A DNA stretch of 64,000 nucleotides from Lachnospiraceae bacterium. GTDB lineage: Bacteria; Bacillota; Clostridia; Lachnospirales; Lachnospiraceae. Position numbers and translations under genes: made by a program. Positions within the stretch are counted from its first letter, which is position 1. The number at the start of each line of letters is the position of its first letter. A model generated the notes under the pieces. It did not search any database. It saw nothing but the letters and a program-made list of their open reading frames with translations, and was not told the origin of the DNA. The stretch lies in the NCBI GenBank assembly GCA_017468395.1, contig JAFUIR010000015.1, positions 124,001 through 188,000 on the forward strand, given 5' to 3'. Below, one piece after another: positions 12,287-21,899 of this stretch.

Positions 12287-12333
12287 AAGACCTCTGCATA
12301 TATTACCTTAAGTAAATATGCAGAGGTCTTTTT
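12287..12333 (+). terminator. Intrinsic terminator of the GntR/ABC operon
   Basis: A perfect 15-bp stem (12287-12301 with 12316-12330) starting AAGACCTCTGCATAT, a 14-base loop and five T residues. The 3' arm contains AGAGG, seven bases before ATG 12334 of the next gene, so this terminator stem also holds the only visible ribosome binding site for that gene. Confidence 0.9.
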
Positions 12334-13032
12334 ATGCCCCAAAATGAATTACATGCCTCACAAACCGGAAACGACACCGGTGTTTTGCGCATTAACGTTA
12401 TCTCGGCTCTGGGAATGATTCCCGTAGCCGGCGCCACTATTACCATCGCCGACACTGCAAATCCCACCGAAATCATTGCCACTTTAACAACCGACGAATC
12501 CGGTCTGACAGAGGATATCCGGCTTTCCACACCGCCCTTAGCCCTTTCTTTGACCCCTTCTGACATACAGCCCTATGCGGAGTACAACATTGAAGTCGTG
12601 GCGGAAGGTTATGAACCGGTGCAAATTTTCGGTTCCCAACTTCTTGCCAATGAATTCTCTTTCCAGTCCGTCCGCATGAACCCTTTGGAAATCACGGAAG
12701 AAGACGAAAAAATTGTTGTCATCCCACCTCACACACTGTTTGGGGATTTCCCGCCTAAAATTCCCGAAGCGGAAATCAAACCCTTGCCCGAAAGCGGCGA
12801 AATCGTTTTAAGCCGGGTAGTAATCCCCGAATATATCATCGTCCACGACGGCGTTCCCAGCGACCGCAGCGCCCCCAATTACTGGGTAAAATACACGGAC
12901 TACATCAAGAATGTGGCATCCTCCGAAATCTATTCCACCTGGCCAGAAGCCACCATTTACGCAAACATATTGGCCATTATGTCCTTTACTTTGAATAGGG
13001 TGTTTACGGAGTGGTACCATCGTATCCATTGA
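12334..13032 (+). pseudogene. SpoIID-like/peptidoglycan-binding protein, 5' half (split by the mobile element)
   Basis: Residues 1-228 of a host protein. A carboxypeptidase-regulatory or Ig-like beta domain (RINVISALGMIPVAGATITI) is followed by a Pro/Glu-rich linker and the start of a SpoIID-like domain (YIKNVASSEIYSTWPEATIY, then AIMSFTLNRVFTEWY). The true sequence ends at GGTAC 13013-13017; the last four residues before the stop (HRIH) are from the element. Joining it at GGTAC to the 3' half at 21321 restores one frame (TEWY-RNQGYDF) of about 420 residues. SpoIID relatives cleave glycan strands during spore engulfment or wall remodelling. The truncated product lacks half of that domain and should be inactive. 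Confidence 0.88.
13013..13017. other. attL core GGTAC
   Basis: The left junction between host (…TTTACGGAGT) and element (CATCGTATCC…). The five bases GGTAC are identical at the right junction. The reconstructed element site has GGTACC with CGA and TCG close on either side, the partial dyad expected for a serine-integrase attP. Confidence 0.8.
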
Positions 13033-13110
13033 TTCATTGTTGTAGAAATCTCATTCTTAACAAATTGATTATACATATGACAGATGCATACAGAAAGGAT
13101 GAAATATACT

Positions 13111-15273
13111 ATGAATAGTACCGTTATTACTATATATCAGAACAATAATTCAAGAGGGCATGCGAACAATCCTAATGGCTTCACAACAGAATTCAATATC
13201 AAAAATGGAGATACTCATACTTTAGCCAAAGCAGTTCAATATGACAACTGTCCTGGTTTATACAAAAATGGGTATCGTAAAAGTGAAAATTTCATCAAAG
13301 CAAACTGTATCCTTGCAGATATTGATAATACACACAGTGAAAATCCTTCCGATTGGATTACACATGATGATGTAATCAACGCTTTACCTAATGTATCATT
13401 TTACTACTATCCTAGCAGAAACCATTTAAAAGAAAAGAACGGACAAGCACCACGTCCAAAAGAACACTATATTTTTCCAACATATACGATTCACGATGTG
13501 CATACATACACAAACACGATGAAAACTTTAATAAGAATGTTTCCACAATTGCATTTTGACACAGCGGTAAGCGGTGGGGCACAGTTAAATTTTGGTGTGG
13601 AAAATCCAACTGTTAGTTATGTGAATGGTACAATAGATTTGTCTGAATTTATAAAACAACATAACAATTCGGATGTTAATACTGAATCAAATATGGACAT
13701 AATCCCCCAAGGTAACAGGAATAATACTATGTTCAAATATGCACTAAAAATTTTGTCTGAGTATGGAGATTCCAATGTATCTCAATCTGCTTACATGAGA
13801 GAATCCCAAAAATGTAATCCGCCATTGGACGATAGCGAACTGTCCGCTATATGGAACAGTGCACTTTCATATTACCACAAAAATGCTCACTCTCGTTACA
13901 ATTATAGTGGACACAGTACGAACTGGGTCATCCCGCCCCAAAACCCTATTGCAGTGCAAAAATTATATGAGCCAGAGAAAAAGGACAGAAAGTTCAACAT
14001 TGCAACCGCAAAACTCATACTAAAAGCCATCAACGTTTCCATAAAACTTAACGATATGAATAGGCACGTTGAAGTTTTGGGGCTTCCTGATAAATATGCG
14101 AAAGATGATGCCTATAACATACTCATCACAATCGTTTCTGATATTGCAAATGATATGTGCTATAAAAGGTCAACTTCCCAAGTCGTCCAAGAAGTTTTAA
14201 ACGTTATAGCAAACGAAAATCACTATCATCCTGTTCTATCTCTTCTTCATCAGAAAAAATGGGACAAGATAGACCGCTTGGAAGAAATATATAACATGCT
14301 AGGGATTTCTGATCGTTTTTATAAAGTACTTATTCAAAAATGGGCTATACAAACAATTGCTCTGTTGTTCAATTCTGAAAGCAATCCAATTACACCCGAA
14401 GGTGTATTAGTTTTACAAGGAAAGCAGGGGGTCGGAAAAACACAATTTTTCAGTCATCTGGCAATCAAAGAAAACTTTTTTAAAGGTGGGGCAACATTGG
14501 ATATGTCAAACAAAGATAGTCTGATGTCTGCAACAAAGATATGGATATGTGAACTTGGAGAAATAGATAGCACTACTAAAAAAGAACAATCCGCCCTAAA
14601 AGCATTTTTGACCGAAAAAACCGACCGTTTCAGAGAACCATATGCTCGTTGTGAAACTATACGACCACGTCGTACTTCATTTTGTGGTACAGTAAATCCG
14701 AAAGGATACTTGCGAGACGAAACTGGAAATCGTCGCTACTGGACAATTCCTATTGACAAAATAAATCTCAAAAAAATATTTGAGTATGACCAAGAATGGT
14801 ACACACAGTTTTGGCGTCAAATCCTCGTAATATATCAAAGTAACCCAACCGGTTATCTGCTAACAGCCGAGGAAAAAGATTTTATAAACAAAAACAATAG
14901 CAACTATGAACTAGATGTATTTGGTCAAGATGAATTTATGACTACCTTTAATCTCACTTCATCAAGAACAGAATGGACATATAAAACTGCTGCTCAAATA
15001 GCAAATATTTTGAGCGAAAAATTTAAAAACCTCAAAATAACCAGTGTCCAAGTGGGAAAAATACTAAATCAAATTGAACAACGAGAAAACATTCAATTTG
15101 AAAGGAAAATCATTCACGGGAAACGGCTCATATTATGTCCTCCTATTTCAGAAAATAACAATATCTATCAATCAACGCCTATTGTTCCATATGTACCTCT
15201 TACGGAGCCTTTTGTACCAAACAACGCAGGACTTAACTTGTACGAAAATCAAAATGAGGTTGTTAATTTTTAG
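13111..15273 (+). CDS. Primase-helicase, VapE/virulence-associated E type
   Basis: About 720 residues. An archaeo-eukaryotic primase-like N-terminal domain has NCILADIDNTHSE (acidic pair), RPKEHYIFP and GGAQLNFG. A PriCT-like helical domain follows (GNRNNTMFKYALKILSEYGD to PPLDDSELSAIWNSA). The C-terminal half is a VapE-type SF3-like helicase: Walker A GKQGVGKTQFF, Walker B KIWICELGEI, and FCGTVNPKGYLRDETGNRRY. It would prime and unwind DNA to replicate the excised element. ATG 13111 is preferred, with AAAGGATGA upstream; an in-frame ATG at 13084 has no ribosome binding site. First gene after attL. AT-rich codon use differs from the host. Confidence 0.88.
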   Translation: MNSTVITIYQNNNSRGHANNPNGFTTEFNIKNGDTHTLAKAVQYDNCPGLYKNGYRKSENFIKANCILADIDNTHSENPSDWITHDDVINALPNVSFYYYPSRNHLKEKNGQAPRPKEHYIFPTYTIHDVHTYTNTMKTLIRMFPQLHFDTAVSGGAQLNFGVENPTVSYVNGTIDLSEFIKQHNNSDVNTESNMDIIPQGNRNNTMFKYALKILSEYGDSNVSQSAYMRESQKCNPPLDDSELSAIWNSALSYYHKNAHSRYNYSGHSTNWVIPPQNPIAVQKLYEPEKKDRKFNIATAKLILKAINVSIKLNDMNRHVEVLGLPDKYAKDDAYNILITIVSDIANDMCYKRSTSQVVQEVLNVIANENHYHPVLSLLHQKKWDKIDRLEEIYNMLGISDRFYKVLIQKWAIQTIALLFNSESNPITPEGVLVLQGKQGVGKTQFFSHLAIKENFFKGGATLDMSNKDSLMSATKIWICELGEIDSTTKKEQSALKAFLTEKTDRFREPYARCETIRPRRTSFCGTVNPKGYLRDETGNRRYWTIPIDKINLKKIFEYDQEWYTQFWRQILVIYQSNPTGYLLTAEEKDFINKNNSNYELDVFGQDEFMTTFNLTSSRTEWTYKTAAQIANILSEKFKNLKITSVQVGKILNQIEQRENIQFERKIIHGKRLILCPPISENNNIYQSTPIVPYVPLTEPFVPNNAGLNLYENQNEVVNF

Positions 15274-15374
15274 GTGTAAGGTGTAAGTACTTTTATATAT
15301 AATTGATAAAAAATAACATTATTATATAGTTTTCTCAATAAGTAACTTTACTCCACCCACACTCTTCATAAAGC

Positions 15375-15409
15375 AAAAGCCACCACTGTCAAACTCAGCG
15401 GTGGCTTTT
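15375..15409. terminator. Bidirectional intrinsic terminator
   Basis: AAAAGCCACC (15375-15384) pairs with GGTGGCTTTT (15400-15409), with CTG/CAG extending the stem inside. It has A and T runs on both sides and lies between the convergent primase-helicase gene and the 74-residue minus-strand gene. Confidence 0.85.
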
Positions 15410-15433
15410 ATCGTCAAACCTCACAGAATTACA

Positions 15434-15658
15434 TTACTCCTTTGTTTTTCCAACCATTAAATACTCACAGTCACCTATTGTAAACACAAAATTCCCCCTT
15501 GGCTCTGTGTTATAAAATATCTCTAGACCTTGTAATTCCTCAATAGTATTCAATAAGTCTAAAACTTCATCAGCAGTAAAAGTCATTTGTGCACACTGCC
15601 CTAATAATGTATCTATATATTGATTGGCTTCCATTGATGCTTTAATCATTCTTCTCAT
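15434..15658 (-). CDS. Small protein of unknown function (element cargo)
   Basis: A 74-residue acidic protein, not recognised. It is predicted helical at the N-terminus (RRMIKASMEANQYIDTLLGQ and FTADEVLDLLNTIEELQG) and ends in short strands (FVFTIGDCEYLMVGK). AGGAG nine bases before ATG 15658 supports translation. It shares the bidirectional terminator with the primase gene. It could be an immunity, anti-repressor or copy-control factor; nothing in the sequence decides this. Confidence 0.6.
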   Translation of the reverse strand: MRRMIKASMEANQYIDTLLGQCAQMTFTADEVLDLLNTIEELQGLEIFYNTEPRGNFVFTIGDCEYLMVGKTKE

Positions 15659-15925
15659 TCTTGTTTACTCCTAATAATAATATCAAGTACAACAGTTCTT
15701 ATGATTTAATTCATTTCAGTTAAATGTTTTTCTTGTCACATCATTTAATGACAGTTTCAAAAAATACGTGCCTTGAAAAAACAAACCACAAGAATGTTTT
15801 TTCTTTTCAATTATATTTAAGGTTTGGTGTAAATCTTAACATTATATATGTTTGCCTTTCAAATCTGGGTGAGATGAAAGTTTCTTTTCCAAGAGGTAAT
15901 ATTCTTCCATAAACACTCAAAATAA
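15659..15925. other. AT-rich gap within the element
   Basis: Between the small minus gene and the repressor terminator I see only AT-rich DNA. A 62-codon plus-strand frame inside has no ribosome binding site. The promoter of the 74-residue gene probably lies at its left end, but I cannot fix it. Confidence 0.4.
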
Positions 15926-15970
15926 AAAGATGAACCAAATATCACATAATAACTGATTTGGCTCATCTTT
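15926..15970 (-). terminator. Terminator of the element repressor gene
   Basis: Arms at 15926-15940 and 15956-15970 (AAAGATGA-x-CCAAAT type, one mismatch) flank a 15-base loop, with T residues following on the minus strand. It lies 27 bases after the repressor stop. Confidence 0.75.
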
Positions 15971-15997
15971 AAATTTAAATATTATAATCTATTGAAA

Positions 15998-16327
15998 CTA
16001 TACATTCTCTATCCCTAAAAGAACTTTTACTGCATGTTGCATGGATGTTCTTGTCCTATATTCCTTGATAACGCTCTTCTCCTCTGCTGTCAATTCATCA
16101 TCTGCCAACCTAATACCAAGCAACTCACTCGCCGAAACATTTAACGCTTCACAAATGTCAGCAATCATATCTGCTGGAGGATTATTTGCACCTTGCTCCC
16201 AGTTTGATATTCTACTGCTGCCTTCTACTCCAATTTTTTTTGCAAGTTGCGATTGAGTCAATCCGCTCTTCTCTCTGTACTTTCGTATATTGCCTCCAAC
16301 TTTGCCTTCCATGTTTTTGTCTTTCAT
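15998..16327 (-). CDS. XRE-family (CI-like) repressor of the element
   Basis: A 109-residue protein with an N-terminal helix-turn-helix: NIRKYREKSGLTQSQLAKKI, then GSSRISNWEQGANNPPADMI and CEALNVSASELLG. The C-terminal 35 residues are a short helix (LTAEEKSVIKEYRTR), with no LexA-like autocleavage domain. ATG 16327 has AAGGTGG seven bases upstream. It is divergent from the Cro-like gene across a 149-bp gap with three or four copies of one operator, a classic lysis/lysogeny-type switch. It probably represses the plus-strand element genes and itself. Confidence 0.88.
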   Translation of the reverse strand: MKDKNMEGKVGGNIRKYREKSGLTQSQLAKKIGVEGSSRISNWEQGANNPPADMIADICEALNVSASELLGIRLADDELTAEEKSVIKEYRTRTSMQHAVKVLLGIENV

Positions 16328-16357
16328 CACATCACCACCTTATTGCTTAAGTATACT

Positions 16358-16458
16358 CAAAATTCTGAAATATAGCAATCAAAATACAGATATTCTGGTT
16401 TTTTCTATTGACTTTACAGATATTCTGTCTTACCATCGAAGTAAATACAGAAATTCTG
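16358..16458. promoter_or_regulatory. Divergent switch region: three operators and two promoters
   Basis: TACAGATATTCTG at 16385-16397 and 16415-16427 and TACAGAAATTCTG at 16446-16458 share CAGA-N3-TCTG dyad symmetry and are 30 and 31 bp apart, three helical turns. A weaker half-site (TTCTGAAA) lies near 16363. The plus promoter is TTGACT (16408-16413), a 17-bp spacer and TACCAT (16431-16436), with the middle operator in its spacer. A minus promoter with TATACT near 16351 serves the repressor. Competition between the two XRE proteins here should set the state of the element. Confidence 0.8.
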
Positions 16459-16476
16459 CACGAAAGGAGTGGTTTT

Positions 16477-16689
16477 GTGCACGTATACGAAAAAGTGCGT
16501 GCTTATATCGAGCAACAAGGCTATAAGCAAATTGTAATAGCAAATAAGGCTGGCATACCTCCAACAACATTTAATGCCATCATGAACGGGAAAAGAACAA
16601 TGTATGCCGATGATTTGCGAGCCATTTGTTTGGCATTAAATGTCAGTCCTGAATTATTTATAGAAGTGCCGAAAAAAGTCGAATTATAG
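16477..16689 (+). CDS. XRE-family Cro-like regulator
   Basis: A 70-residue protein that is almost only a helix-turn-helix domain: VYEKVRAYIEQQGYKQIVIA, then IPPTTFNAIMNGKRTMYADD and ALNVSPELFIEVPKK. The start is GTG 16477, seven bases after AAAGGAG; a longer frame upstream would cross the operators and lacks a site. It is divergent from the CI-like gene, so it is the probable Cro counterpart. The start being GTG may keep its level low. Confidence 0.85.
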   Translation: MHVYEKVRAYIEQQGYKQIVIANKAGIPPTTFNAIMNGKRTMYADDLRAICLALNVSPELFIEVPKKVEL

Positions 16690-16803
16690 AAAGGGGGATT
16701 CACTCAAAATATTAAAGTACTTATAAATACTGTCTTATTTATAACAAAACAAAACTTCATAACTGTGCAAACAAAAATATGAAATATCAGAAAGGGAAAA
16801 AAT
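16690..16803. other. Short gap without recognised feature
   Basis: AT-rich DNA between the Cro-like gene and the 416-residue gene. It contains AGAAAGG before ATG 16804 as the ribosome binding site and no clear terminator, so read-through from the switch promoter is likely. Confidence 0.4.
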
Positions 16804-18054
16804 ATGGATAATTTTTATACAGACGCTGTTATTGCGAACATTAGAAACAGATTGAATTCCGACCACTTTGTACCGATATATGGGGGAAGCACATTCATGG
16901 AATGGGAACAGCGCGATAAAGTAAATGAATTAGAACTCCCCTATATACTTGTTAAAGACTCTATTGACTTCACTTTTGACCGCAAAGCATATCAAACCGT
17001 CAATAAAGAAGGGAATATTATTATACGACAATTCAGTACAGATATTATCCCCTTTAATCTCGAATTAAGAATGGAGATACATGCAAAATCTCAAGCACAA
17101 TGTGATGAGTTAACAAACTGCTTATTAGAATTGTACACTTCCCCCCAAGAGTTTATCGTCACCTTGCCCATGCACGAAAATGAAGAATTCCATTTTAGCA
17201 TTCATTATGATAAAGAAACCAGTGATAGCAAACAAAAAATTAGAGAGTTTAGAAATAAGCGTGTTATACAAGATGATAATATATGCATAAGTGAATTATG
17301 TTTTTACAGTATTCCTTGTGTATATTTCAATAACGAAGAAAACCGTGTTGATGTATCCAACAATCGTAGACTACAAATCAATTTATTGAAACTAGCTACA
17401 TTCTACGGAGAATGTTCAAAAAAATTATATGATTTAGACCTCACAAATTATACATGTTTAACACAAAACGGATCTTTATTCAATTTTCTGCTTCCTCAAG
17501 ATTTAAAAACACTAAAAAATTGTTATCAAAAAAATTTACCTCTTGATAAAGACTTATTTACAAAGGTGTTCAGTAAAATAATCGAATTTTATCCAAACAT
17601 ATATGATAAAGCCGTTCAAAGATGGTCTAAAAGGCAAGTCTGGGAAGACACAAGAAACTATTCTAAACTGTTTGACCAAAAGTGTAATGGAATATGCACA
17701 TTTTTGAATATACATTTTGAAGAACTAAAGGTTGTTTCGCCATCTTCTCCCGAAAACCTGCGTGCTTATATAGAATTGATGCAAACCGACAAAAACATGT
17801 CATTATCAGAAGCAATTGCAACTATAGAAGAAGAGATAATCGAGGAACGAATGAATGTAGAGATTGATACGTCAAACAGTGGTGGCGGAATTCTCAGCGG
17901 ATTAGCCCATCAAGCAATTGAAAGTCACAACATAAAAAATCATGCAGGCGATAGAACCAGACGTGATTTAATAGGGCTTTCCGGTTGTGCAAAAACACAA
18001 GGCGGCACTTGCTCAACTTGCAATCTACGTTTTAGTTGCTCAAGATATTTTTAA
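16804..18054 (+). CDS. Unrecognised 416-residue element protein with C-terminal Cys cluster
   Basis: Not assigned to any family. It is soluble and mixed alpha/beta, without a signal peptide or membrane helix. The N-terminal 200 residues are beta-rich (LPYILVKDSIDFTFDRKAY, FNLELRMEIHAKSQAQCDEL), and the middle is helical. A Ser/Gly linker (SNSGGGILSGLAHQ) leads to the last 23 residues, which hold four cysteines as C-x7-C-x2-C-x5-C (GCAKTQGGTCSTCNLRFSC). That spacing suggests bound zinc or an iron-sulfur cluster. It is the largest cargo gene apart from the replication and recombination genes, placed directly after the repressor switch, so it is the best candidate for the element's special function. 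Confidence 0.75.
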   Translation: MDNFYTDAVIANIRNRLNSDHFVPIYGGSTFMEWEQRDKVNELELPYILVKDSIDFTFDRKAYQTVNKEGNIIIRQFSTDIIPFNLELRMEIHAKSQAQCDELTNCLLELYTSPQEFIVTLPMHENEEFHFSIHYDKETSDSKQKIREFRNKRVIQDDNICISELCFYSIPCVYFNNEENRVDVSNNRRLQINLLKLATFYGECSKKLYDLDLTNYTCLTQNGSLFNFLLPQDLKTLKNCYQKNLPLDKDLFTKVFSKIIEFYPNIYDKAVQRWSKRQVWEDTRNYSKLFDQKCNGICTFLNIHFEELKVVSPSSPENLRAYIELMQTDKNMSLSEAIATIEEEIIEERMNVEIDTSNSGGGILSGLAHQAIESHNIKNHAGDRTRRDLIGLSGCAKTQGGTCSTCNLRFSCSRYF

Positions 18055-18099
18055 ACAATTCTTACACAAAAACAAACATCAATAAGGAGGTGAACTATA

Positions 18100-18237
18100 A
18101 TGGCGGTACAGAAACTATATCGTATTCAGCATTCACATGGTACAACCCACATCTATGCATATAACGAATATGATGCGGCTCAACAGTTCCAAAAAAAATA
18201 TCCTAACTATAGGATAAAAAGTATTGAAGAAGCATAA
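18100..18237 (+). CDS. 45-residue protein of unknown function
   Basis: ATG 18100 follows a perfect AAGGAGG by nine bases and the frame ends at TAA 18235-18237. The product starts MAVQKLYRIQHSHGTTHIYA and ends YPNYRIKSIEEA; it is basic with aromatic residues and no known motif. It lies 45 bp after the 416-residue gene and 69 bp before a terminator, so it is the last gene of that transcript. Codons 2-6 contain GGTACAGAAAC, identical to the host side of the attachment site. Confidence 0.7.
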   Translation: MAVQKLYRIQHSHGTTHIYAYNEYDAAQQFQKKYPNYRIKSIEEA

Positions 18238-18306
18238 TAACTATCGTCGCTCACATTGTATAAAAACAAACATCTCTTTTCATTTATTTTTATCAACAAA
18301 GATTTG

Positions 18307-18339
18307 CAGGCATAATCGCTTATGGTTATGCCTGTTTTT
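18307..18339 (+). terminator. Intrinsic terminator after the 45-residue gene
   Basis: CAGGCATAA (18307-18315) pairs with TTATGCCTG (18326-18334), followed by five T residues. Confidence 0.88.
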
Positions 18340-18363
18340 CATATAAAAATATAAAAGAAACAG

Positions 18364-18436
18364 TTTACGACCTTTCCTTTATATCATATAATATGCAATC
18401 ACACACGGAAAAAGGAAAGGAAGTCTATATGATATA
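18364..18436 (+). promoter_or_regulatory. Resolvase promoter with an 11-bp inverted repeat
   Basis: TTTACG (18364-18369), a 17-bp spacer and a perfect TATAAT (18387-18392) precede the resolvase gene. TATATCATATA (18380-18390) and its exact complement TATATGATATA (18426-18436) are 46 bp apart. One covers the -10 region and the other the start codon. They may be binding sites of the resolvase itself. Confidence 0.65.
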
Positions 18437-19019
18437 CGGATATGCAAGGTGTTCTACCAATGAAAAACTCCAAGACATAAACAGGCAAGTACGAGAACTA
18501 AAATTCAGTGGCGCTTGCGATACTTCTATTTATTTAGAATATGAAAGCGGAACAAATACAAATCGTGCCGAATTAAACAAGTTGCTTGGCATCGTACAAA
18601 AAGGTGACACTATCGTAGCCACGGAAGTAAGCCGAATCACACGTAGTACAAAACAACTATGCGACATCCTAGAATTAGCAAAGTCCAAGCAAATCAAATT
18701 GATACTAGGCACTTTTGTTGTCGATTGTTCAACAGAACTAGACCCTATGACAGAGGGTATGCTTAAAATGATGGGCGTTTTCAGCGAACTTGAAAGAAAC
18801 ATAATAAGCCAACGCGTAAAAAGCGGTATGCAAAACGCACAAAGTAAAGGCAAAAGCATTGGACGCCCCAAAACAAACACTGATACCATTCCTGCTATTT
18901 TCTACAAACACTATCCCAAATACAAGTCTGGACTAATCAATAAGAAAGAGTTTTCACGACTCTGTTCCCTCTCCTACCCCACCATCTATAAATACATAAA
19001 TTTGGTTGAGGAAAAATAA
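18429..19019 (+). CDS. Small serine recombinase (resolvase/invertase family)
   Basis: 196 residues. The catalytic domain starts MIYGYARCSTNEKLQD with the nucleophile Ser in ARCST. The family motifs EYESGTNTNRAELNKLLG, TIVATEVSRITRSTKQL and MMGVFSELERNIISQRVKSG (the E-helix) follow. A GRPK linker and a short Hin-like helix-turn-helix (FSRLCSLSYPTIYKYINL) end the protein. Such enzymes resolve dimers or invert short segments. ATG 18429 has AAAGGAAAGG upstream. It probably maintains the circular replicating form as a monomer, which fits the element's own primase-helicase (inference). Confidence 0.92.
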   Translation: MIYGYARCSTNEKLQDINRQVRELKFSGACDTSIYLEYESGTNTNRAELNKLLGIVQKGDTIVATEVSRITRSTKQLCDILELAKSKQIKLILGTFVVDCSTELDPMTEGMLKMMGVFSELERNIISQRVKSGMQNAQSKGKSIGRPKTNTDTIPAIFYKHYPKYKSGLINKKEFSRLCSLSYPTIYKYINLVEEK

Positions 19020-19070
19020 TATGAAAGTACTAATCACCTCAGCATTTATTTTTATAAAGAATTTCACACA

Positions 19071-19209
19071 TTTTTTGCTTCCACCCCTTTTTTACTCTTG
19101 TTAAAATGCACAATTTTTCAGGTTCCTTTTTGTTGCTTCTGCTATTTTTTATTAGGTTTACTATTTTTAGCCGTTTTTTGCAATTTTTTTAGTTTGTTCT
19201 GCATTTTTT
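19071..19209. repeat. Phased T-tract region, probably bent DNA
   Basis: Nine runs of five to seven T residues start at 19071, 19088, 19114, 19127, 19145, 19164, 19174, 19184 and 19204. The last four are spaced by 10, 10 and 20 bp, one or two helical turns, which favours intrinsic bending. The 360-bp gap 19020-19379 has no confident gene, so this could be an origin or recombination site. Confidence 0.5.
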
Positions 19210-19250
19210 CAACATTATATATGGGTACCAACTCAAGGAGGTATCTATAT

Positions 19251-19268
19251 ATGTATGACACAAGTTGA
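19251..19268 (+). other. Possible five-codon leader ORF
   Basis: A perfect AAGGAGG (19235-19241) lies nine bases before ATG, which opens a frame of only MYDTS before TGA. GTCTTTC and GAAAGAC downstream could pair before the next gene. It could be a leader peptide or the ruin of a gene start. Confidence 0.3.
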
Positions 19269-19379
19269 TTTTTACGAAACACAAAAGCGGAACATTTCAG
19301 ACTGTCTTTCTCCGTGCATTCTATATGCAAAATCTAAAGGCATCTAAATTTTGACTGAAAGACAAAGGATAAATGTGCC

Positions 19380-19628
19380 ATGAAAAAAACTGTACATACA
19401 AATGAATACGACAGAAATCAAACCAATAGAATGATTCTAAGAATACCTAGTATGGATTCCTATATGAATAATATCGAAAGTACAACTCCTTCACAAAAGA
19501 TGAATGTTGTTATACAGTTTCCCGAAACTTCTGAAACTTCTGATTACATCATTGATGAAGTAAAAGTTATTTTACTTGAGATATTTCAAAAAAATATGAA
19601 AGAACAATACAAAGGAGACAAATTATGA
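19380..19628 (+). CDS. 82-residue protein coupled to the integrase, unknown function
   Basis: Not recognised. The N-terminus is polar (MKKTVHTNEYDRNQTN); the rest contains VVIQFPETSET and an amphipathic helix DYIIDEVKVILLEIFQKNMK. Its stop overlaps the integrase start by four bases (ATGA), so translation is coupled. A small gene directly before a large serine recombinase is a plausible place for a recombination directionality factor, but sequence alone does not show this. Confidence 0.65.
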   Translation: MKKTVHTNEYDRNQTNRMILRIPSMDSYMNNIESTTPSQKMNVVIQFPETSETSDYIIDEVKVILLEIFQKNMKEQYKGDKL

Positions 19629-21337
19629 AACAAACAAACACTGATAAAAAAATAGCACGTATTCTTCTGCGTGTAAGTTCCAATCAGCAATTAGATGCTG
19701 ACGGGGATTTATCTACTCAAAGGCAAATTATTCTTGAACACATCAAACAACACGATGGTTGGATACTAGATGAAAAAGAATACTTTGAGGGTGGTGTCAG
19801 CGGATATAAGAATTCTGTTGCTGACAGAGATGTCCTTCAAGAAGCATTGCAAGACGCAAAAAACAATGAATATGACATTCTTGTAGTGTACAAAGATGAC
19901 CGTCTCGGTAGAAGAACGCTTGAAGTTCCTACTTACATACTCGAACTAAAACAAGCGGGTGTAGATATATATACCGTAAAAGACGGCTGGATATCTCCAA
20001 AAGGAGACGACACCTTTGCCATGGTAACTCTTGTAATGCGATATGCAAACGCAGAAAAAAGTAGCAGAGATACTGGCATGAGAGTAAAAGATACTGCCAA
20101 ACAACTAGTTAAGAAAGGGAAATTCATGGGCGGCAAAGCCCCCTACGGGTACGAGTTAGTCTATTCGGGCGAAACAAGCAAACACGGAAGACTACTTAAA
20201 CATCCTGTTATCATCCCCGAACAGGCCGAGGTTGTAAAGCATATTTTCCATTTATCTTATCATCAAGAATTTGGTTCATCTAAGATAGCCAGAATATTAA
20301 ACAACGACGAAGCATACAAAAACATGGCTCCCAATGATGTGTGGAGAGGTGGAACTATAACCAGTATTCTCACCAATCCGCTCTATGCAGGATATACATC
20401 ATACAATCGTAGAGAGCGAATCGGTGACAGAACTAACCGTTTAGACCACTCACAATGGATTCTTTCTGAGACCCCTAACCCAGCATTAGTAATAGTCCCC
20501 GAAGAACTTTGGCAAAAGGCACAGGAAAAAAGACTATTAAGGAAAGCGAAATATACCAAGTCCTTATCCAATCAAAATGTAACTGTGATTTCTCGTAACG
20601 ATGGCATGCTTTCTCTTGTTGATGTCATACACTGTGGTTATTGTGGCAGAAAAATGACAAACGGCACCAAATACAACTACTGGACTATTAAAGGTACTGG
20701 CGAACGACGTACTAGTAAAATTCCTACATACCGTTGTCCAAATGCATGGCAAGGAATTCCCCACGAAAAAAGCAAATCGCCTAGGGCGGACGAAATTGAA
20801 CCCATCATATATTCTTCCATTGCCGAATACATGGAAAAACTACAAAGCAGAGAAGATGCTTTTAATCAAATCATTATGAACAATATTGCAGAAAAGAAAC
20901 AACTGGAAACTGTTATACAATCAGAAATCAAAAAGCTCGAAAAAATACAACACCACATTTTTGTCATGGAAGATAAAATTCCAGAAGCGATTACTGGCGA
21001 GTATGCTCTTACTATCGACGAACTCAAAAGGCAAATTGATAGATATAAGGAAAAGGAATATGAACAAGAACAACTTATCTTACAGAAAAAAGAAGAACTT
21101 CAGAATGCAATTATATCAATTGCCGATTGGGAAGAAGTCAAAACAAATATCCCCACATGGCATGATATGCTTTTAAATGCCGATAATACAACCAAGCGAG
21201 TATTGGTAAACAAACTAATAGAACGAATAGATATAACCGACGAAACCGTTGTAATACGGTTTAAAATCAATTTGAATGATTTTTTTCCTCAAACCCGAAT
21301 CAGTGATGGCTTCGAGGTACAGAAACCAAGGCTATGA
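19625..21337 (+). CDS. Large serine recombinase (integrase); gene runs through attR
   Basis: 570 residues. The N-terminal catalytic domain has ARILLRVSSNQQLDADGDLS with the nucleophile in RVSS, and YKDDRLGRRTLEVPTYILEL. A recombinase domain follows (GKAPYGYELV, ITSILTNPLYAGY), then a zinc-ribbon (HCGYCGRKM and YRCPN) and a long coiled coil (about residues 400-500). These parts define the large serine integrases that join attP and attB. The last five residues, QKPRL, are encoded after the GGTAC core by host DNA. In the excised circle the frame would instead continue about 33 codons into the element's left end, ending DAYRKDEIYYE. Translation is coupled to the 82-residue gene. Confidence 0.95.
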   Translation: MKQTNTDKKIARILLRVSSNQQLDADGDLSTQRQIILEHIKQHDGWILDEKEYFEGGVSGYKNSVADRDVLQEALQDAKNNEYDILVVYKDDRLGRRTLEVPTYILELKQAGVDIYTVKDGWISPKGDDTFAMVTLVMRYANAEKSSRDTGMRVKDTAKQLVKKGKFMGGKAPYGYELVYSGETSKHGRLLKHPVIIPEQAEVVKHIFHLSYHQEFGSSKIARILNNDEAYKNMAPNDVWRGGTITSILTNPLYAGYTSYNRRERIGDRTNRLDHSQWILSETPNPALVIVPEELWQKAQEKRLLRKAKYTKSLSNQNVTVISRNDGMLSLVDVIHCGYCGRKMTNGTKYNYWTIKGTGERRTSKIPTYRCPNAWQGIPHEKSKSPRADEIEPIIYSSIAEYMEKLQSREDAFNQIIMNNIAEKKQLETVIQSEIKKLEKIQHHIFVMEDKIPEAITGEYALTIDELKRQIDRYKEKEYEQEQLILQKKEELQNAIISIADWEEVKTNIPTWHDMLLNADNTTKRVLVNKLIERIDITDETVVIRFKINLNDFFPQTRISDGFEVQKPRL

Positions 21338-21899
21338 TTTCACCATCACTTCCAGCACCGCCTACGACCAAAAATGGATTTACGGCAGAAACACCTACGA
21401 AAACATTGACGTATTAGTGGACAGTATTTTCAACAACTACCTGGCACGCCCCGGTGTGCGCCAGCCCATCTTTACTTCCTACTGCGACGGCAACCGCACC
21501 TCCTGCGACGGCTTAAGTCAGTGGGGCTCCAAATACCTTGGCGATGAGGGTTATTCCGCCATTGAAATCATCCGCTATTACTACGGCAATGATATGTATA
21601 TCGCCACTGCGGAGCAGATTTCCGGCGTTCCCTCCTCCTTCCCCGGCTACAATTTAACTGTTGGAGCCTCCGGAGACAAAGTGCGCCAAATGCAGCAGCA
21701 GTTAAACCGCATCGCAGAAAACTATCCTGCCATTCCTTCTCTTATAGCAGATGGAATTTATGGTTCACGGACAGCCGAAAGTGTGCGTACATTCCAGCGG
21801 ATTTTCGGTCTCCCCGTTACCGGCGTTGTAGATTTTGCCACCTGGTATGCCATTTCCCGCATTTATGTAGGTGTCAGCAGAATTGCGGAACCGGGCTAA
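21306..21899 (+). pseudogene. SpoIID-like/peptidoglycan-binding protein, 3' half
   Basis: The true host sequence starts after GGTAC (21316-21320) with RNQGYDFTITSS and continues the SpoIID-like domain (TYENIDVLVDSIFNNYLARP, CDGLSQWGSKYLGDEGYSA, IRYYYGND). A peptidoglycan-binding type 1 domain follows (LTVGASGDKVRQMQQQLNRI to DGIYGSRTAESVRTFQRIFG). ATG 21306, inside the integrase gene, gives MASRYRNQGYDF in this frame, but no good ribosome binding site is seen. The half has no frameshift or stop, which suggests recent insertion or selection for an excisable intact gene. Confidence 0.88.
21316..21320. other. attR core GGTAC
   Basis: The right junction between element (…GATGGCTTCGA) and host (AGAAACCAAGG…). 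It carries the same five bases as attL. The reconstructed host site is GAGTGGTACAGAAACC, in the SpoIID-like coding region. Confidence 0.8.

Follow-up and report, generated by a model that had tools for sequence, protein, structure and literature searches.

Elements of one serine integrase family in a single codon of the cortex-lytic gene sleC of Lachnospiraceae, and their possible excision in the mother cell

Does a mobile element that has divided a sporulation gene leave it again during development, or has it merely inactivated the gene? This question is raised by a 64,000-nucleotide stretch of a Lachnospiraceae bacterium genome (contig JAFUIR010000015.1, positions 124,001 to 188,000; the whole stretch is called here the window), part of a 29-contig draft (assembly G000), in which an element of 8,303 bp divides a single host gene into a 5′ part and a 3′ part, both open. 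The pentamer GGTAC is present at each of the two junctions, attL and attR. The features on which the argument rests are the following:

12297..12305, + strand: sigma-E/K-type -10 sequence (CATATATTA), 37 bp 5′ of the sleC start, with no AC at the 16/17-bp position
12334..13017, + strand: sleC 5′ half, 228 codons up to the Tyr codon of the junction (an intact relative, P0001, matches PDB 9h68)
13013..13017, + strand: attL core GGTAC, crossover presumably at TA, 13015-13016
13017..13118, + strand: far end of the element, which would continue the integrase frame in the putative circle (33-aa tail, stop)
19380..19628, + strand: 82-aa open reading frame (ORF) overlapping the integrase start, candidate recombination directionality factor (RDF), which aligns with 29 ORFs preceding related integrases
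19625..21337, + strand: large serine integrase (PF00239, PF07508, PF13408; phrog_95, 1.6e-79), the last codons of which cross attR and are host-encoded by sleC DNA
21316..21320, + strand: attR core GGTAC, sequence shared with attL
21321..21899, + strand: sleC 3′ half, 192 codons, C-terminal peptidoglycan-binding domain (PF01471, 5.3e-17)

A reading of the letters alone (the original prediction) had described an 8.3-kb element with a large serine integrase that splits a SpoIID-like gene, whose excision would restore the frame exactly. The size, the open halves and the shared GGTAC were as it had stated, and the presence of Resolvase, Recombinase and zinc-ribbon domains, together with attL and attR sites that have a common core, agreed with the proposed type of integrase.

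The interrupted gene and the frame that excision would restore

The identity of the gene had to be revised. When the halves were searched singly, PG_binding_1 and weak SpoIID/LytB and SleB profile matches were obtained. The partial likeness to SpoIID stood (PF08486, E=0.0027; TIGR02669, 5e-7, both below cut-off), but SpoIID identity was rejected, with scores of 18.7 of 23 bits for PF08486 and 22.3 of 234.75 for TIGR02870. An intact relative (P0001, 421 aa, from locus L002) instead matched PDB 9h68, 'spore cortex-lytic enzyme pre-pro-form', over nearly its whole length (E=8e-139; residues 17-419 aligned to 61-475), which identifies the host gene by homology as a sleC, the gene of the spore cortex-lytic enzyme; at the insertion point the aligned chain of 9h68 reads TLNRVFTEWYRNKGY. 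One match was found in G000 for each sleC half (N and C), so that the interrupted copy is the sole sleC detected there, and SpoIVA was also found in this genome. The N-half was then compared with SpoIVA over the 122 genomes of 90% completeness or more and no more than 5% contamination (unlisted genomes counted as no match, in agreement with the totals): it was present in 102 of the 111 that have SpoIVA, against 1 of the 11 that lack it (Fisher p=7e-9, kinship not corrected).

A sigma-K-type motif, AC-N16/17-CATANNNT, was detected 5′ of sleC in 34 of 62 loci (71 before the removal of duplicates; shuffle mean 2.1, maximum 5, 20 runs), and CATANNNT alone in 50 of the 62 (shuffle mean 17, maximum 22). 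By this motif search a sigma-K-type promoter motif of sleC is conserved in many relatives; in the window's sleC the -10 is present and the -35 AC is absent. A Clostridioides difficile study places sleC in the sigma-K regulon, as a sigma-K-dependent gene, and terms it essential for germination (PMC3789822). The top sigma-K match in G000 scored 277 bits, below the 299 cut-off, which a Bacillus subtilis control fails to reach too.

The window's interrupted sleC frame runs into a stop at 13032, and joining the halves in silico at the shared core restores the frame exactly, as had been predicted. The empty site was read-through with a Tyr codon in 88/88 fetched intact copies from the same genus (TAC in 56, TAT in 32); as these copies had been chosen for their long open frames, they reveal the appearance of an empty site and not its frequency. 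The original prediction had named two outcomes that would speak against a switch, closest relatives without the element that lack a joined gene, and decay of either half together with the lack of any excised form. Element-free relatives do have the joined gene, and no frameshift or stop was found in the N-half or the adjoining C-part of copies interrupted at codon 228, C-halves that are interrupted again apart. The uninterrupted sleC copy of L108 is frame-shifted elsewhere, and a distant third sleC piece in L069 has one TGA within the matched stretch.

The integrase family and its target codon

When the integrase alone was used as the query, 38/38 loci adjoined half of sleC, two of them (L062 and L065) half of a paralogue of about 48% identity, and nearly all of the 38 were titled Lachnospiraceae or genera placed near. 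All 11 matches of at least 37% identity in 196 relatives (own genome included) adjoined sleC or a paralogue (G117), and so did 11 of 12 further family-level matches (L181 in a paralogue), the exception having 29-30% identity; at least 3 of these 12 were the same contigs as in the 38-locus search. Of the weaker matches fetched, the eight loci L042-L049 (33% identity or less) had no sleC within 1.5 kb, while a 31% match in G090 does adjoin sleC. The integrase was found in no annotated plasmid, and among annotated phages in 3 records at 26-28% identity. Of the 112 genomes of the same genus that gave an N-half match, at least 12 have the interruption at codon 228: in 10 of them both halves were located (those of G066 on two contigs), and in G090 and G114 one side; the N-half matches of G027 and G109, among the 112, are weak only. 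Of the 36 family loci in which the attL end was seen, 34 read TGGTA plus one base there. By these counts the recurrent split at codon 228 far exceeds chance, and elements with this integrase form a family that is devoted to the Tyr codon of sleC.

The junctions and elements were compared in loci that did not include L001-L050 (short records that were intact, refetched as L089-L100, or devoid of sleC). The 30 elements with both ends seen range from 1,959 to 15,544 bp, 13 of them below 4.4 kb, and the shared core extends beyond GGTAC in some and is just GTA in others. Among 51 loci, counted without duplicates (L057, L070, L077, L109, L175) and without L102-L108 (contig ends or other sites), the integrase 3′ end lay at most 60 bp from a junction in 41, and the integrase faced the C-half (forward) in 37 and the N-half (reverse) in 14. 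The attP is a near-palindrome centred on GGTAC, from which we infer that the palindromic TA is the crossover pair; since TA is self-complementary it would not fix the orientation, and both orientations are expected.

The integrase gene itself is altered by integration. The C-terminus of the window's integrase, QKPRL, is read from host DNA beyond attR; if its frame is linked instead to the element's far end, it runs on for 33 residues before a stop. A tail motif, approximately LIxxCRxLIxNELxIxxxGKxxYxxEY, was in frame in 11 of the 31 elements of which the two ends were analysed (L060 and L109 are near-identical, L054 and L068 partial) and was also found in L076, L098 and L101; the remaining elements have either lost the tail or an earlier end of the frame. 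Differences between tails at codon positions 1, 2 and 3 were 0.38, 0.17 and 0.64 (10 sequences, 13 codons, picked by the first motif codons, the pairs not being independent), and in the seven next codons, unused in the picking, they were 0.37, 0.11 and 0.64. This excess at position 3 points to a coding tail. Judged from these junctions, attP in the window and in a subset of elements is located inside the integrase gene, at its 3′ end, so that integration there also replaces the integrase tail and divides two genes at once, that of the host and that of the integrase; the truncated integrase probably stays active. The long form of the integrase is carried uninterrupted by L110, a viral contig of 145.7 kb on which genes for tail, tape-measure and Dit proteins, a ligase and a ribonucleotide reductase were recognised. 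No sleC was found there within 10 kb, and this phage contig might be a helper or ancestor of the small elements.

The cargo, as read from translations and not from family searches, varies and includes CheC/CheD-like, secreted, DUF4160-like, retropepsin-like and HEPN/nucleotidyltransferase-like products. The sole cargo of the 3.3-kb element of L052 resembles, from its translation, the chemotaxis proteins CheC and CheD. In L061 the sleC halves are separated by one 11.3-kb insert that has an integrase 59% identical to the window's and another of 40% identity, which suggests that two elements inserted there in tandem, and in L075, L080, L084 and L094 the integrase is at least 1.8 kb from the junction at which it points, perhaps in composite or nested elements.

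Proposed excision in the mother cell and rival readings

The reading that we consider rather probable is that of an active or recently active integrative element with a sleC-codon-specific integrase, the excision of which in the mother cell restores sleC and the integrase. The integrase would recognise one sleC codon and integrate at the TA of Tyr codon 228, which would split sleC and exchange the integrase C-terminal tail for a few host-encoded residues; integrase and small ORF (19380-19628) would later excise the element, with exact restoration of both genes. Excision would occur in the doomed mother cell, and the spore would inherit both the element and a working SleC. As sleC is probably a late mother-cell gene, the element could be carried without harm if it leaves in that cell. 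The site in such a gene, the exact repair, the candidate RDF and the open halves fit with mother-cell excision. By analogy with skin, SP-beta and gin, excision during sporulation is likely; it has been described as shown for skinCd, gin and SP-beta (PMC5025042, PMC5595907, PMC4191935). The same analogy had been drawn in the original prediction, and it holds in so far as the element lies inside a sporulation gene and its excision restores the frame in silico.

The partner proposed for the integrase is the small ORF directly 5′ of it. That of the window could be aligned with 29 more, which gave the consensus GMxVxLEFPx...EVKxIL (L055 and L060, of the 31 small ORFs located, were left out of the alignment), and no Pfam family fits it. 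A convincing small ORF was not obtained in every element scanned. The 1,959-bp element of L181, inserted in a sleC paralogue, has little beyond a related 51-aa ORF and a 535-aa integrase. From its position and conservation, the window's small ORF is probably the directionality factor.

Several results weigh against developmental excision. A sigma-E-type promoter precedes the small ORF in 4 of 35 elements (shuffle mean 1.2, maximum 4), a sigma-K-type one in 0/35, and by motif search no sporulation promoter of either type precedes the window's small ORF or integrase. One of the four sigma-E-type matches is the ATA-N16-CATAAAAT site of L181; CATAAAAT alone precedes the small ORF in 5 of 35 (shuffle mean 0.7, maximum 3), and of these five, three are closely related. 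A common sporulation promoter for the small ORF and integrase was rejected, there being no clear enrichment over shuffles. The joined 16-mer (attB) had 0 matches in a search of the window's own assembly, so only the integrated form was assembled. G000 encodes three Hydrolase_2 (SleB/CwlJ-type) proteins, so that sleC may be dispensable and cortex lysis possibly redundant. The integrases of L081 and L084 are each in two pieces, and these elements cannot excise through their own integrase. The tail, in frame in a minority of the elements, is not essential and is a feature of a subset.

A rival reading is plain parasitic insertion, in which a conserved landing site is used and sleC is inactivated, the host relying on other cortex-lytic enzymes or sporulating under rare selection; the halves would be open because the insertions are recent, and excision would be rare and non-developmental. 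The three Hydrolase_2 proteins, the broken integrases, the integrase operon devoid of a sporulation promoter and the minority of interrupted genomes in the genus all speak for it, and so does recent transfer. Between the window and G060 the integrase dS is 0.25 and the sleC halves are near saturation; the same pattern of similar integrases in diverged hosts was seen in L059/L060 and L066/L097, and unrelated integrases were found in the close hosts L089/L093. The low integrase dS against near-saturated sleC argues for recent transfer, and by such comparisons the elements jump between species. With frequent transfer many insertions would be young, and open halves alone are then a weak proof of function, a further point against developmental excision.

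The constraint on the halves was compared through median dN/dS (number of pairs in brackets). It was 0.140 (839) for the N-half and 0.080 (1,199) for the C-half between intact copies, 0.138 (280) and 0.094 (346) between intact and interrupted copies, and 0.127 (31) and 0.137 (38, paralogues included) between interrupted copies. There is no clear relaxation of constraint, though the C-half value of interrupted pairs is somewhat above that of intact ones, which counts against the mother-cell model. Against parasitism stands the pair L069/L088, which share the element and a second insert, collinear in both (identity of 91% in the upstream host sequence, 93-97% in the element and 97% in the second insert), and yet show 40 synonymous versus 3 non-synonymous codon differences in sleC (35 and 3 in the N-half, 5 and 0 in the first 73 C-half codons). 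The integrase dS of this pair, 0.17, is below the N-half dS of 0.28, so that part of the constraint may pre-date the insertion and the element may have arrived somewhat after the split. Because no common sporulation promoter precedes small ORF and integrase, we hold the full mother-cell model to be rather probable and no more, and allow plain parasitism a substantial chance while judging it on the whole unlikely.

A third reading, a switch that has been domesticated and is passed on vertically, kept by the host for its own timing as with skin in sigK, would agree with the smallest elements, which at 1.96-3.3 kb have hardly any cargo or none, and with the L069/L088 pair. The presence of the same element in distant hosts (window/G060, L059/L060, L066/L097), unrelated integrases in the close hosts L089/L093, both orientations and variable cargo make it very improbable, and as a general case vertical domestication was rejected, since integrase and host divergences disagree. 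An assembly artefact or chimera, which the 29-contig draft might suggest, has a negligible probability and is refuted for the family, for the junction is repeated in dozens of independent assemblies, among them the megabase scaffolds L054 and L076.

Known systems and the remainder of the locus

Elements in sporulation genes are already known, and sleC as a target was not met in the open-access literature matches listed, nor was any element in sleC reported in their titles and abstract starts. One of the closest counterparts is gin in gerE of Bacillus cereus (PMC5595907), likewise a non-phage element in a sporulation gene, with serine recombinases, a small partner (GirX), exact restoration and an unknown transfer route. 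It differs in host gene and bacterial class, and in having 31 genes, three recombinases and sporulation-timed expression that was shown, whereas the sleC elements, of 2-15 kb, have one site-devoted integrase family over many genera, both orientations and, in a subset, a split integrase; this devotion to one site and the double split are known from sequence. In skinCd in sigK of C. difficile (PMC5025042), a large serine recombinase (CD1231) and a small RDF (CD1234) similarly restore a mother-cell gene, but CD1234 is under sigma-E and SpoIIID, and here the candidate RDF lies directly 5′ of the integrase and no such promoter was found. The element yin in yabG of Clostridium botulinum (PMC10747680) also lies in a sigma-K gene, with circular and integrated forms that coexist, and is reported as unique to one strain, unlike the sleC elements, which form a family spread over Lachnospiraceae. 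Archaeal suicidal (SSV-type) integrases likewise have att within their own gene, which integration breaks; they are, according to a 2021 review that places self-disrupting recombinases in archaea only (PMC8371274), tyrosine recombinases whose two parts are held to be inactive, whereas here a bacterial serine integrase would lose its C-terminal tail only.

A wider proposal can be made tentatively, as one that we would not put at an even chance: sleC would serve as a developmental refuge for a gut-wide family of elements of 2 kb and up, in which the tail marks the free form and tunes directionality, mother-cell excision repairs both genes, and every spore carries the element together with SleC made from a repaired and then discarded gene. 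The developmental excisions of the cited papers are scattered cases in different genes; here a whole integrase family uses one gene and one codon in many gut Lachnospiraceae, which offers dozens of natural replicates for asking whether terminal mother cells select self-excising elements. If the mother-cell model is true, these commensals need excision at the right time in order to germinate, and their integrase would be a site-specific tool for either orientation with a built-in difference between its free and integrated forms.

The other genes of the window's element are:

13084..15273, + strand: primase/helicase, VapE-like domain and PriCT-1, start codon uncertain (PF05272, 2.9e-52; PF08708, 3.7e-5; PHROG helicase/primase)
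15434..15658, - strand: 74-aa ORF, no significant family
15998..16330, - strand: CI-like helix-turn-helix (HTH) repressor (PF01381, 1.8e-15; phage repressor PHROGs)
16408..16689, + strand: Cro-like HTH protein, divergent from the CI-like repressor (PF12844, 2.3e-7; phrog_4583)
16804..18054, + strand: 416-aa protein, Cys-rich C terminus (weak match to an unknown PHROG, 9e-4; no Pfam family)
18393..19019, + strand: small serine resolvase/invertase, 208 aa (PF00239, 2.3e-32; phrog_125)

Phage satellites with a VapE-type primase and a CI/Cro pair are a further counterpart. The window's element resembles them, on its genes alone, in this content and in its lack of capsid families, and the phage contig L110 has the same integrase family. 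As the original prediction had noted, conjugation or capsid families were not recognised, none being found with Pfam and PHROG profiles among the 8 element ORFs scanned. The small resolvase-type enzyme at 18393-19019 is a second serine recombinase of the element, perhaps for multimer resolution.

Further interruptions of sleC were also observed. A second one lies in the C-half, near codons 66-72 in L088, L069, L060 and L078 and near codons 75-78 in L067 and L081, so that in these genomes sleC is in three pieces. The remaining C-half was located on the same contig 61.5 kb (G624), 66 kb (G617) or 57.8 kb (G605) further, and on another contig in G598, G607, G614 and G623; in the fetched stretches of the G624 and G617 second inserts no phage genes were obvious by eye. 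In G133 (L105/L188) and G153 (L106/L189), which belong to two further families within the order, codon 228 of sleC is uninterrupted but the gene is broken after CPGWM by inserts of about 3.6 and 4.7 kb, each with a serine recombinase. The two appear similar to each other and unlike the window's, and are perhaps an independent family at a second sleC site.

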